Of a stretch of DNA of 43,186 nucleotides, positions 1-43,186 are shown piece by piece. Positions within the stretch are counted from its first letter, which is position 1. Each line of letters opens with the position of its first letter. The notes beneath the pieces are model-generated. The model did no database searches, was not told the DNA's origin, and saw only the letters and a list, made by a program, of their open reading frames with translations. A program made the translations under genes and the position numbers. The DNA comes from a virus. Location: IMG/VR virus record IMGVR_UViG_3300032020_000385, positions 1 through 43,186 of that record; one strand, written 5' to 3'.

Positions 1-342
1 GGATGCAATTATACAACTTATGCTCGAATCATTGGGCAAGGCCTGGCTTGGCAGGGCGAGGCGAGGCGTGGCGGGGCACGGCGTGGCATGGTCGGGCATG
101 GCGAGGCAAGGCAAGGCAGGGATGCAATTATAGAACTTATGCTCGAATCATTGGGCAAGGTCAGGCGGGGCGGGGCTTGGCGGGGCTGGGCGAGGCATGG
201 CTGGGCCGGGCAAGGCACGTCGTGGCATGGTCGGGCATGGCGAGGCAAGGCAGGGATGCAATTATAGAACTTATGCTCGAATCATTGGGCAAGGCGGGGC
301 GAGGCGCGGCAAGGCGTGGCGTGGTCGGGCGAGGCAAGGCAG
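1..342. repeat. GGCNN pentamer array with 34-bp cores (left part)
   Basis: The segment consists of GGCNN pentamers, with the last two bases variable, interrupted by near-identical 34-bp cores at 1-34, 120-153 and 254-287. Cores begin GGATGCAATTATA and end GAATCATTG. Between them lie 17 pentamers (35-119), 20 pentamers (154-253) and 11 pentamers (288-342), all in exact 5-nt register. A few units deviate (GGTCG three times, GGTCA, GTCGT). Each block closes with GGCAA GGCAG before the next core. The array stops 28 bases before the radical SAM start codon. It is open in several frames only because GGCNN rarely makes a stop. GG doublets every five bases could in principle form two-tetrad G-quadruplexes, which is inference. 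Function is unknown. Confidence 0.9.
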
Positions 343-7969: not shown

Positions 7970-8572
7970 ATGGCAAAAGGAGAATCCATCGTGAAGATGA
8001 GTCCTGCAAATAAGATTGAGGAGATATTAGATGCGCTGGGTAAGGGTGCTGAATGGATTCAAAAAGCTGGAGAGCTGTACGTGGAGCTGATTGCCGTTGA
8101 GCCGCAGGCGAGAGAAGACTTGAAGCGAGCGGCAGCGGCGCGCGATTTACGGTTTAGCAGTCAGACGCTCAACTGGCTGGAAGGCATCGGGCGCCATCAG
8201 ATGCATCGTCAGCTATTTTTGACCAGAGGGACCGGTCAGGGCCGTCTTATCAGCAGGCTGCCTTTTTCGGACCAGAAGGCAATCTTCGAGGATGGTAAAA
8301 AGTATCCTCTACTTTTACCGAACGGAGATGATATTCTGGTCGATCTCCGCGAGATATCGCACGGACAGGCTGCGCAGATATTTGGAGATGGGTATATCCG
8401 GGACCTGCCGGAGCAAAAAAGCTGGTTGCTCGATAATAAACCACAACAAGAGGACGCCGAGGAAATCAAAGAGCCATACGTATTACTTCAGGGCTTTGTG
8501 GATTTCCTGCCTCACGATAAAAAGTTGAGGCTGAGTAAAGCCAGGCTGCGCGAAATCCTGATGCAAATATGA
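7970..8572 (+). CDS. Hypothetical protein, about 200 aa
   Basis: ATG 7970 is preferred over the in-frame GTG 7925 because AAAGGAAA lies at 7958-7965. The protein is soluble and largely helical in its first half (ANKIEEILDALGKGAEWIQ, EDLKRAAAARDLRF), then has a more beta-rich segment (YPLLLPNGDDILVDLREIS) and a charged C-terminus. The N-terminal helices could form a DNA-binding unit, but no helix-turn-helix is clear. It ends in an ATGA overlap with the repeat protein, indicating co-translation. No family is recognised. Confidence 0.6.
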   Translation: MAKGESIVKMSPANKIEEILDALGKGAEWIQKAGELYVELIAVEPQAREDLKRAAAARDLRFSSQTLNWLEGIGRHQMHRQLFLTRGTGQGRLISRLPFSDQKAIFEDGKKYPLLLPNGDDILVDLREISHGQAAQIFGDGYIRDLPEQKSWLLDNKPQQEDAEEIKEPYVLLQGFVDFLPHDKKLRLSKARLREILMQI

Positions 8573-9411
8573 AAATCATCCTAAGACGATGCACGAAATG
8601 CGGCGACGAAAAGCCGTTAGGCGCATTCAAACGGTGTAAATACGAACCTCATGGTCGCCTCACACTCTGCAAAGATTGCCGGAATGCCCGACTGCGCGAG
8701 CGGTATCATAAGGACCCAGCCTATCGAGCGAAAGTGAAGGCCCGAGCGCGAGAACGGTCGAAGGATCCGGCATATCGGGCGAAGAAGAACTCCCGACAGC
8801 GCGAACGGTATCATAAGGAGCCGGCCTATCGGGCGAAAGTGAAGGCCCGAGCGCGAGAACGCTCGAAGGACCCAGCCTATCGGGCGAAGAAGAACTCCCG
8901 CCAGCGCGAACGATATCATAAGGACCCGGCCTATCGGGCGAAAGTGAATGCCCGAAAGTGCGAACGCTCGAAGGATCCGGCCTATCGAGCGAAAGTGAAT
9001 GCCCGAGCGAGCGACCGGTATCATAAGGACCCGGACTATCGAGCGAAACACCGGGCGAAAAGGAATGCCCGAAGGCGCGAACGCTTGAAGGACCCGGACT
9101 ATCGAGCGAAAGTAAAGGCCCGAGCGCGCGAACGCTCGAAGGACCCGGCCTATCGGGCGAAAGAGAATGCCCGAGCGCGCGAACGCTCGAAGGACCCAGC
9201 CTATCGGGCGAAAGAGAATGCCCGAATGCGCGGGGAATATAAAAAGCGGTGTAACGACTCGGCCTATCGAGCGAAAAGGAATGCCCATAACCGCAACTCA
9301 TATCGCGAATTAATGACGTTCAAAATCCTTTTTTTAGAAATTCCGCTTCTGAAACAGTTGCTTCCTGAAGCAGTTAAAAAACTGAAACATGGGGAGACAT
9401 CGAATATGTGA
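8569..9411 (+). CDS. Zinc-ribbon protein with tandem basic YRAK repeats
   Basis: The N-terminus has C8-x2-C11 and C34-x2-C37 (CTKCGDEKP and LCKDCRN), a zinc ribbon like that at the start of many phage HNH proteins. From residue 43 to about 230 the protein is a tandem array of some eleven 17-18-residue units around DPAYRAK, alternating RERYHKDPAYRAKVKARA-type and RERSKDPAYRAKKNSRQ-type units, so a 35-residue higher-order repeat is visible. The repeats are rich in Arg and Lys and would form long basic helices. No HNH catalytic motif follows; the C-terminus is a short hydrophobic helix (FKILFLEIPLLKQLL). Nucleic-acid binding is inferred. Confidence 0.8.
   Translation: MKIILRRCTKCGDEKPLGAFKRCKYEPHGRLTLCKDCRNARLRERYHKDPAYRAKVKARARERSKDPAYRAKKNSRQRERYHKEPAYRAKVKARARERSKDPAYRAKKNSRQRERYHKDPAYRAKVNARKCERSKDPAYRAKVNARASDRYHKDPDYRAKHRAKRNARRRERLKDPDYRAKVKARARERSKDPAYRAKENARARERSKDPAYRAKENARMRGEYKKRCNDSAYRAKRNAHNRNSYRELMTFKILFLEIPLLKQLLPEAVKKLKHGETSNM
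8695..9234 (+). repeat. In-gene tandem repeat (~51-54 bp units, 105-bp pairs)
   Basis: DNA encoding the DPAYRAK units is itself strongly repetitive: GCCTATCGGGCGAA and GAACGCTCGAAGGA recur at 51-54-bp intervals. The unit length is a multiple of three, so copy-number change preserves the frame. The opposite strand is also open throughout, which is a consequence of the repeat. Confidence 0.85.
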
Positions 9412-12896: not shown

Positions 12897-12911
12897 TAGG
12901 GTAGATTGATT

Positions 12912-14897
12912 ATGGCTACCTACTATATGGATTATGTCAATGGCGACGATGGCAATAATGGCTCATCTTGGGCGCTTGCCAAGAAGACCATACAAGGCTT
13001 TACTGCTGCTATTTTGGGGCCCGGTGATATTATCAGGATTGCCAAAAGTCCAGCTCCTGTTTCTTTAGGAACGACTGGGGCGTGGAATGGAACTGGAACA
13101 GTTACTGAAAGAAAAATCGTAACGCTCGGAGCGGCTCAAAATGTAACTATTGAATTGTGCGAAACCGCCTGGACGGCTTCTACTGATGTTACGGCTACTA
13201 CCTCAGCAACAAGGAAAGAAGGTAGTTATGCCGCATCCCTTGCGATTGTTGCTGGCTTTACTACTGGCAAAGTTGCTTATAAAGCCACAGGTACTCTTAA
13301 TTTATCTGCTTATCAAAAACTTTCTTTTTGGATACAGAATAATGCTGCAATCGCTTCGGCAACTGTTTTGAAGGTCGTTCTTTGTTCAGACACCGCTGGG
13401 GATACTATTGTTGATACTTTTTGGATCCCTGCCATTCCCTCAACCGCCAGGTTTCTTCCTTTGACTATAGCCAGAGAAGGTGGGGGGAATTTGGGGGCTT
13501 CTATTGCGTCAATCGCCGTTTATGCTAACAGTGACCCTGGCACAATAACCCTTCTCTTAGATGATTTTATTGCTTGCACTACTGATGGGCTTAATCTCCA
13601 AAGTTTAATATCCAAGAACTCTGCCGAGCAGGGCGGAACGGAGGGTTGGTATGGAATACAAAGCATAAATGGAGTTACGGTTTTACTAGATAATGATACA
13701 AATACTTTAGCCAATGCTGGCAGGGGATATTCAGGAACAACTGAAACTGTAACTACCTATAAAAGAGAAACGATAAAAACAGATTTGGCTGCGGCTGCTA
13801 CAACGGAAGTTCAGACAGTTCAAGCTAGTGGAAGTTTTGCAGTTGGTAACATCGAATTTCAAGGCGGTTGGAATACTTCTACAACTGTTCAAGAAGGAGA
13901 AACATTTTTTGATGGCTTAAATGGAAATGGTTATGGGATTTATTTATTAACTAAAAGTCATATTACTTTCAATTATCTTAATGTTTGCCGTTATAACTAT
14001 GGGGTCTGCTACAGCACCAGCAGCAACAACACTATTACCACCCTTTCAAATGCTAATAATAACACCTATGGGGTCGTCTACAGTAGCGCCAGCAACAACA
14101 ACACTATTACCAGTCTTTCAAATGCTAACAATAACAGTTATGGGGTCTACTACAGCGCCAGCAACAAGAACACTATTACCACCCTTTCAAATGCTAATAA
14201 TAACACCTATGGGGTCTACTACAGCACCAGCAGCAACAACACTATTACCACCCTTTCAAATGCTAATAATAACGCCTATGGGGTCCGCTATGACATCAGC
14301 AGCAATAATACCATTAAATCTTTATCAACTTCGGGAAATGGAACAACGGGGGTTTACAATGATAGAGGAATAAATTATCTTTTTAACGCCTTAATCGCCG
14401 AACCAACAGAAGTTTCAGGATATACAAGTTTTGGCAATTCAAGGATTTTTTCAAACAAGCACGACCAAACTACAGATAATCATTGGATATTTACCGATGG
14501 CGGGACGATTAACTCGCAAACAACGGTCAGGCATACTGCTTCGGGTATAGCGTGGAAACTGGCGATTACTTCCGCTAACAGGGCCAGCAATTATCCGCTT
14601 ACTTTATCAATAACTAAAATTGCAGTTGCGGCAAATGCTCTGGTAACCGTGAAAGTATGGGTCTATAAGGACTCTGCGGCGGGAGTAGCAGCAAAATTAG
14701 TTTGCAGGGGCAAGCAGATTGCGGGAGTTGATAACGATGTCGTGGCGACTGCGGCGAATGTCTTACAAACGTGGGAGGAATTAACGATAACCTTTACGCC
14801 CACGGAAGCGGGAGTAGTTGAGATTGAAGGTTGGGGTTATTATGTATCGGCTCTGAGCAGCGTCTACTTTGACGACATGACAATTTCTCAGGCGTAA
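12912..14897 (+). CDS. Tail spike/adhesin with beta-helix repeats
   Basis: The 661-residue protein starts at ATG 12912 (an upstream TTG is less likely). The beginning (YMDYVNGDDGNNGSS) is typical of pectate-lyase-type right-handed beta helices. Residues about 90-230 look like a carbohydrate-binding jelly roll (GTLNLSAYQKLSFWIQN, LLLDDFIA). Residues about 355-480 hold five near-identical 23-residue NosD-like units with NNTITTLSNANNNTYGV. The C-terminal 130 residues form another beta-sandwich ending in YFDDMTISQA. Such proteins bind or degrade host surface glycans. The gene is visibly more AT-rich than its neighbours, a sign of acquisition. Confidence 0.75.
   Translation: MATYYMDYVNGDDGNNGSSWALAKKTIQGFTAAILGPGDIIRIAKSPAPVSLGTTGAWNGTGTVTERKIVTLGAAQNVTIELCETAWTASTDVTATTSATRKEGSYAASLAIVAGFTTGKVAYKATGTLNLSAYQKLSFWIQNNAAIASATVLKVVLCSDTAGDTIVDTFWIPAIPSTARFLPLTIAREGGGNLGASIASIAVYANSDPGTITLLLDDFIACTTDGLNLQSLISKNSAEQGGTEGWYGIQSINGVTVLLDNDTNTLANAGRGYSGTTETVTTYKRETIKTDLAAAATTEVQTVQASGSFAVGNIEFQGGWNTSTTVQEGETFFDGLNGNGYGIYLLTKSHITFNYLNVCRYNYGVCYSTSSNNTITTLSNANNNTYGVVYSSASNNNTITSLSNANNNSYGVYYSASNKNTITTLSNANNNTYGVYYSTSSNNTITTLSNANNNAYGVRYDISSNNTIKSLSTSGNGTTGVYNDRGINYLFNALIAEPTEVSGYTSFGNSRIFSNKHDQTTDNHWIFTDGGTINSQTTVRHTASGIAWKLAITSANRASNYPLTLSITKIAVAANALVTVKVWVYKDSAAGVAAKLVCRGKQIAGVDNDVVATAANVLQTWEELTITFTPTEAGVVEIEGWGYYVSALSSVYFDDMTISQA
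13980..14340 (+). repeat. Five tandem 69-bp in-frame repeats
   Basis: The 69-bp unit encodes 23 residues and includes AATGCTAATAATAAC and CACTATTACCACCCTTTC. Copies differ at few positions, mostly in the residue after YGV and in the S/T/A segment. Recent expansion by unequal recombination or slippage is likely, and it would lengthen the beta helix by whole turns. Confidence 0.85.
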
Positions 14898-42372: not shown

Positions 42373-42388
42373 TTTGAAAGGAGATAAA

Positions 42389-42931
42389 GTGGCAATTAAG
42401 ACAATCAAAATTCAAATCAAGGGTAAAACCCCTCTTTTAATGCATCGATTCCCCCTTCTTCCAATAGAGGCAATCGAAAAGAAAAGTCCGGAGGAGCAGG
42501 CAGAAATTGCGGCGTATCGGGACGAAAAAACCAACGAGCTTTACATACCAGGCGTGGCGATCCAGAGGGCGTTGGTCAACGCCGCTACGTACAGTAAGGG
42601 TAAAGGGCGCGCATCACTGCAGAAAAGCGCGGCTGCCTGTCTCATGATAAGCCCTGAATATGTCCTGCTTGGAACAAAGACATATAAAATGGATGCCCGC
42701 GCCGTCGTTATCCCTGCAACGAAGGGCCGCGTTGTCCGCTATCGTCCGCGATTAGATGAATGGTCCTGCTCTTTTGATCTGGATTACGAAGATACGCTCG
42801 TAAAAGAGACCGAAGTTCGCAAGATCGTAGATGATATGGGTGAGCGCGTTGGATTACTCGATTTCCGGCCCGAGCGCAAAGGACCATTCGGCCGCTGTAT
42901 GGTCATTAAATGGCAGAATAAAAAAGATTAA
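42389..42931 (+). CDS. Phage protein with TPLLMHRF motif
   Basis: GTG 42389 has AAAGGAG at 42377-42383 and is preferred to TTG 42374. The 180-residue product begins IKTIKIQIKGKTPLLMHRFP, and later has LYIPGVAIQRALVNAATY, IPATKGRVVRYRPRLDEWS and RVGLLDFRPERKGPFGRCMV. The IxGxTPLL start and a Gly-rich end recall RAMP-type (Cas7-like) RNA-binding folds, but no crRNA genes or CRISPR repeats are present, so this is only a hint. It is the last gene before the pentamer array, whose first unit follows its stop codon immediately. Confidence 0.6.
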   Translation: MAIKTIKIQIKGKTPLLMHRFPLLPIEAIEKKSPEEQAEIAAYRDEKTNELYIPGVAIQRALVNAATYSKGKGRASLQKSAAACLMISPEYVLLGTKTYKMDARAVVIPATKGRVVRYRPRLDEWSCSFDLDYEDTLVKETEVRKIVDDMGERVGLLDFRPERKGPFGRCMVIKWQNKKD

Positions 42932-43186
42932 GGCAAGGCTTGGCGTGGCGGGGCACGGCGAGGCAGGGCGTGGCGGGGCACGGCGAGGCAGGGCCAGGCG
43001 TGGCGAGGCAAGGCAGGGATGCAATTATAGAACTTATGATCGAATCATTGGGCAAGGCTAGGCTGGGCATGGCGAGGCAAGGCGTGGCTTGGCAAGGCAT
43101 GGCAAGGCAAGGCAGGGATGCAATTATAGAACTTATGCTCGAATCATTGGGCAAGGCGGGGCGAGGCGCGGCAAGGCGTGGCGTGG
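42932..43186. repeat. GGCNN pentamer array with 34-bp cores (right part)
   Basis: The first pentamer follows immediately after the TAA stop of the last gene (42929-42931). Seventeen pentamers (42932-43016), a core (43017-43050, one base different from the others), thirteen pentamers (43051-43115), a second core (43116-43149) and seven more pentamers run into the end of the window. Bases 43105-43186 are identical to 243-324. The material upstream of that match differs between the two ends, so the true array is probably longer than either part, or the assembly stopped in it. Confidence 0.9.

Follow-up and report, generated by a model that had tools for sequence, protein, structure and literature searches.

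A probable VIPR locus in a metagenomic phage: a Vipr-like RAMP gene adjoining an array of GGCNN pentamers

The window analyzed here is the entire entry of IMG/VR virus record IMGVR_UViG_3300032020_000385, which is 43,186 nucleotides long and classed as linear. Its two ends, 42932-43186 and 1-342, carry six tracts of GGCNN pentamers on the + strand (Table 1). By position, the complete blocks contain 17, 13, 17, 20, and 11 units, and there is one cut-off block of 7; in all complete blocks the first unit is GGCAA and the last two are GGCAA GGCAG. A near-invariant, AT-rich core of 34 nt follows every complete block except the last. Core copies (32-nt matches starting at 43018, 43117, 2, 121, and 255) have at most one substitution each, those at 2 and 43018 having exactly one, and core-to-core distances are 119, 134, and 99. 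Runs of six GGCNN units with no more than one mismatch occur at 54 places in the window, versus none in 100 dinucleotide shuffles. The first base of the array directly follows the TAA of the gene at 42374-42931, and the far edge lies just upstream of a GGAG sequence and an ATG at position 371. An earlier sequence-only reading had reported a register-locked array in which only the last two bases of each unit vary, with 34-bp cores, these block sizes and distances, a shared block ending, and a stop codon and a ribosome site at its edges. Direct reading bears all of this out, the only departures from strict GGC being four GGT units and one GTC unit.

The final 82 bases of the window are an exact copy of 243-324. 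As the record is also classed as linear, the contig ends inside the repeat, and this assembly therefore does not fix how many blocks there are in total or in what order. The cut-off block is probably either the block at 288-324, which the assembler had run into, or else a duplicate of it. Both halves probably belong to a single array and operon, lying between the + strand genes that end at 42931 and start at 371. No promoter or terminator exceeding the shuffled background was found near the array. Directly 3' of it, 371-1129 codes for a radical SAM protein that weakly matches families of spore photoproduct lyase and of phage DNA photolyase; the remaining neighbors are small genes without assigned function.

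Table 1. Parts of the locus, in the order in which they would be read across the two ends of the record.
Feature	Position	Strand	Basis
vipr gene, 185-aa RAMP (Cas7/Csm3-like), phrog_4652	42374..42931	+	profile match, PDB 36pp match, AlphaFold2
vrRNA variable tract A, 17 GGCNN units, exact 25-nt internal duplication	42932..43016	+	direct reading
34-nt core, presumed vrRNA 3' tail, one substitution (ATGATCG)	43017..43050	+	sequence
vrRNA variable tract B, 13 units	43051..43115	+	direct reading
34-nt core, presumed tail	43116..43149	+	sequence
Cut-off block, 7 units, identical to 288-324	43150..43186	+	sequence identity
34-nt core at contig start, one substitution (ATACAAC)	1..34	+	sequence
vrRNA variable tract D, 17 units	35..119	+	direct reading
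34-nt core, presumed tail	120..153	+	sequence
vrRNA variable tract E, 20 units; 3' end similar to that of tract D	154..253	+	direct reading
34-nt core, presumed tail	254..287	+	sequence
vrRNA variable tract F, 11 units, last block; then GGATTTTTGGGTATAAAGGAG in place of core	288..342	+	direct reading

The reading frame of the gene upstream of the array is uninterrupted from start to stop. Its product has no match in Pfam and matches phrog_4652, a family whose function is unannotated (E = 6e-19). When compared with PDB entry 36pp, "SUSP1 Vipr protein", the window protein alone gave E = 1.9e-4, and a profile of its family (78 members, mean column identity 22%) gave E = 3.9e-41. An AlphaFold2 model of the protein had a pLDDT of 95.9; its best PDB matches were Csm3/Cas7 proteins, with Z up to 13.0 over 161 residues, and the top rows were all CRISPR RAMPs. 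In alignment A1, G159 and G172 are invariant and G155 and R164 near-invariant, which is compatible with the glycine-rich loop of RAMPs. Judging from profile matches and the predicted fold, the product is a Cas7/Csm3-type RAMP and a homologue of Vipr, and phrog_4652, hitherto without function, is identified as Vipr on the same grounds. The likeness to Class 1 CRISPR-Cas is confined to this predicted fold: PADLOC assigned the window RAMP to no cas family, no cas families were found with Pfam among the neighboring genes tested, and the window has no CRISPR repeats and spacers or other recognized cas gene. The array itself was rejected as a CRISPR array, since its 34-nt cores alternate with GGCNN tracts of one grammar and not with unrelated spacers.

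VIPR (Viral Interference Programmable Repeat) was described in a preprint of April-June 2026 (PMC13142463). Found mainly in phages and proviruses, this CRISPR-like system represses competing phages and satellites, and seven types are distinguished. Vipr is a single-RRM RAMP with a glycine-rich loop and a thumb; it binds vrRNAs, which consist of GGY/NN pentamer repeats (9-16 in each of those studied) and a 3' tail that is invariable and of conserved secondary structure. A double-stranded DNA target is read by the NN pairs, one base being skipped between one pair and the next. The arrays are intergenic, flank vipr, and lie on the same strand, and there is an accessory gene, vap (PMC13142463).

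The window locus shares with the SUSP1 system (PDB 36pp) a phage-borne RAMP gene for a protein of ca. 20 kDa, GGY/NN arrays beside that gene on the same strand, and a constant element after the variable tracts. It differs in several respects: the window Vipr is only distantly related to that of SUSP1, the core is AT-rich, 34 nt long, and without a stable predicted fold, blocks reach 20 units compared to the 9-16 given in the preprint, and there is no recognized vap (none among the genes adjoining the array by Pfam) or matched target.

Viral contigs were scanned for eleven GGCNN units; association counts cover the matches listed. Among these matches, viral arrays mostly contained many different NN pairs, while arrays in cellular genomes were mostly low-diversity microsatellites. 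Many of the listed viral arrays start no more than a few bases past the stop codon ending a gene on their own strand; the recurrent neighbor is a very diverse protein of ca. 190 aa. A four-seed profile found this family in 93 of 120 viral and 5 of 120 cellular loci among the matches listed. For variable arrays among them, the family was present in the fetched stretch at 93/114 viral and 5/34 cellular loci, and at none of the 92 monotone loci (0/6 viral single-NN microsatellites and 0/86 cellular loci); the difference between variable and monotone loci listed is highly significant (Fisher p = 6e-30). Arrays lay on the strand of the vipr gene in 372 of 385 listed cases. In a reverse test, all four relatives found by protein alone (57-69% identical) had GGYNN arrays beside the gene, and the family was absent from 20 viral records without variable arrays (0/20). 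Across 485 arrays, GGC and GGT made up most units, all 16 NN pairs were present, and the block-length mode was near 11 units.

Some array loci without the gene have the array at a contig end, and a few have the gene elsewhere in the record. Variable GGYNN arrays for which no Vipr homologue was found include L019, L055, L059, L104, L112, and L115 (IMG/VR records G049, G052, G053, G061, G063, and G064). Vipr-less arrays of this kind could be orphan vrRNAs, fragments, or partners of Viprs that have diverged strongly.

Among the named phages that carry the gene are the Felix O1-like wV8, Pseudomonas LESphi2, Mycobacterium LittleE, and several Gordonia phages. GGYNN arrays were close to the gene in seven of eight fetched named-phage regions; in the case of phiHSIC, no array was found within the 6.4-kb stretch fetched. 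The wV8 gene sits between GGTNN arrays; the deposited record lists the flanking repeats as direct repeats "DR_4". Genes around the wV8 cassette are mostly noted with Felix O1 homologues; gp95 and gp94 are noted without, and the cassette may therefore be mobile. One or two genes flanked on both sides by arrays were seen at loci L016, L026, L061, L108, and L247.

Because the locus agrees with VIPR in protein family, fold, repeat grammar, position, and strand, we conclude, with a probability of roughly 0.93 and on the strength of sequence and a structural model, that the locus is a VIPR system, i.e., a Vipr gene plus a vrRNA array of an already described kind. The association between arrays and Vipr was derived independently of the preprint, and the array is therefore read as guides: going by its sequence, it would encode about five programmable ones, with the 34-nt core most likely serving as the constant 3' tail. 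The sequence-only reading was right that the array is neither coding nor CRISPR and might act through RNA, and the locked register with variation in the final two bases alone, which it pointed out, is the decisive trait. Its statement that no described element resembles the array is refuted by the match to the vrRNAs of VIPR (PMC13142463), whose grammar of a fixed GGY and a hypervariable NN the array follows, and by the neighboring Vipr homologue. Each vrRNA would consist of one GGY/NN block followed by the core. By analogy with the SUSP1 work and with Cas7 filaments, Vipr subunits would line up along the RNA at the GGY triplets, leaving the NN pairs exposed. As in SUSP1, the pairs would jointly recognize double-stranded DNA in the form NNxNNxNN, with one base skipped, a gapped dinucleotide code in contrast to the contiguous spacers of Class 1 CRISPR-Cas. 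Binding would then repress the targeted gene in the competitor, be it phage, prophage, or satellite. The carrier is itself probably temperate, because it has an integrase gene; the virus record also includes a terminase.

The blocks bear traces of their history. In block A (42942-42991), units 3-7 (GT GG AC GA AG) are repeated as units 8-12, an in-register duplication of 25 nt, which suggests from the sequence that guides can change via whole-unit slippage. Blocks D and E carry the tract AC-GT-AT-CG-AT-GA-AA at matching positions toward the 3' end; a rare GGTCG unit near the end is common to D, E, and F, while their 5' parts differ. These shared 3' features suggest that the blocks arose from a single block and had their 5' part replaced.

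Three of the five complete blocks have 17-20 units, and the other two (11 and 13) fall within the 9-16 of the preprint. Close relatives also have blocks of 16-32 units, so the 9-16 range may differ by clade. Arrays in the window's clade (15 members, with a support of only 0.69 for the defining fork) were longer than the rest (median 14 versus 11, Mann-Whitney p = 3e-5), in a sample mostly picked with the 11-unit pattern, which biases absolute lengths. We tentatively propose, as a possibility that we hold to be rather less than even, that the window belongs to a VIPR clade in which guides are long (17-20 NN pairs), begin and end with constant units, carry a short, AT-rich tail of 34 nt, and evolve by whole-block duplication and 5' replacement with the 3' part inherited; such a format is absent from the main text of the preprint (PMC13142463).

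The predicted folding of the core was no better than that of shuffled sequence, and the core is absent from relatives that are 59-69% identical in Vipr. The database search proposed in the sequence-only reading was run across all IMG/VR contigs and gave 0 matches, so no other contig there has the core. Rfam searches of the window and 16 relatives revealed no family at the gathering threshold and one weak chance match at a low threshold. BLAST searches with the array gave no match among plasmids and only a weak Mycobacterium phage match among phages.

Targets were sought in IMG/VR with guides D, E, and F. Exact 10-unit seeds of D and E matched 0 loci each. With 8-unit seeds, 20 loci were found for F, 7 for E, and 3 for D, all of them chance-like: the 20 for F come close to the number estimated by chance for a 16-base pattern, most of them in unrelated genes, and matches of E and D do not extend. 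A scan of all guides against all loci (2.3 Mb, low power) showed no excess under any skip rule.

These results bear on an alternative to a working VIPR system, namely a degenerate locus of real VIPR ancestry whose guides are no longer functional, e.g., after slippage or block recombination. The duplication in block A, the shared ends of D, E, and F, the last block without a core, and the lack of a convincing target in the searches all point that way; on the other hand, the vipr gene is open and its product is modeled with confidence (pLDDT 95.9), all blocks keep register, and the cores are nearly invariant. We consider degeneration improbable, though the most credible of the alternatives.

Two further readings are far less probable. 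RNA sites of TRAP, the trp RNA-binding attenuation protein, are triplets spaced about every five bases, and the array could likewise be an mRNA leader or spacer with triplets, 2-nt spacers, and ca. 11 units, bound by a TRAP-like ring protein that regulates the operon. The 5-nt period, the fixed triplet, the block-length mode near 11, and the intergenic, same-strand position of the arrays would agree with this. However, the adjoining protein is a RAMP, a different fold, the triplet is GGY and not the GAG/UAG of TRAP, and no TRAP homologue was found, the TRAP family PF02081 being present in 0 of 49 array records even at E <= 1; such a reading is very unlikely. We give just as little credence to a DNA-level role by way of G-quadruplexes, R-loops, recombination, packaging, or replication. 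It would account for one strand having GG every five bases, for the contig break within the array, and for the frequent flanking of the gene by arrays on both sides, but GG alone explains neither the fixed pyrimidine at position 3 nor the strict five-base register, and one RAMP family is tightly and strand-specifically tied to the arrays across unrelated phages. The G-quadruplex, packaging, and replication roles raised earlier found no support.

As a form of RNA-guided DNA recognition, VIPR has only recently been reported and may predate CRISPR; the locus adds to it a divergent member with readable guides. According to the survey, GGYNN arrays occur commonly in viral metagenomes, where a simple pattern suffices to find them. 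Finding them this way permits guides to be decoded and perhaps the study of how new guides arise, a point left unexplained in the main text of the preprint (PMC13142463).

Several minor observations were made along the way. In LittleE (L248, 4196-4390) and MakoManhole (L252, 1635-1700 and 2980-3150), the sequence between or before the arrays resembles a tRNA T-arm and acceptor stem with a GGTTCGA loop; Rfam searches of both loci gave no match. At L285 (5644-6081), a relative with 65% identity, a gene for a VRR-NUC-like nuclease, recognized by eye, follows vipr; it may belong to the vap-type nucleases or simply be an ordinary phage gene. Elsewhere in the window, 8569-9411 codes for a basic protein in which a zinc-binding start is followed by ca. 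ten copies of a repeat of 17-18 aa (RERxKDPAYRAKxNARA) and which weakly matches phage endonuclease and regulator families. The product of 12906-14897 contains tandem SNANNNTYGVxYSxSSNNTITTL repeats and is probably a beta-helix tail or surface protein.
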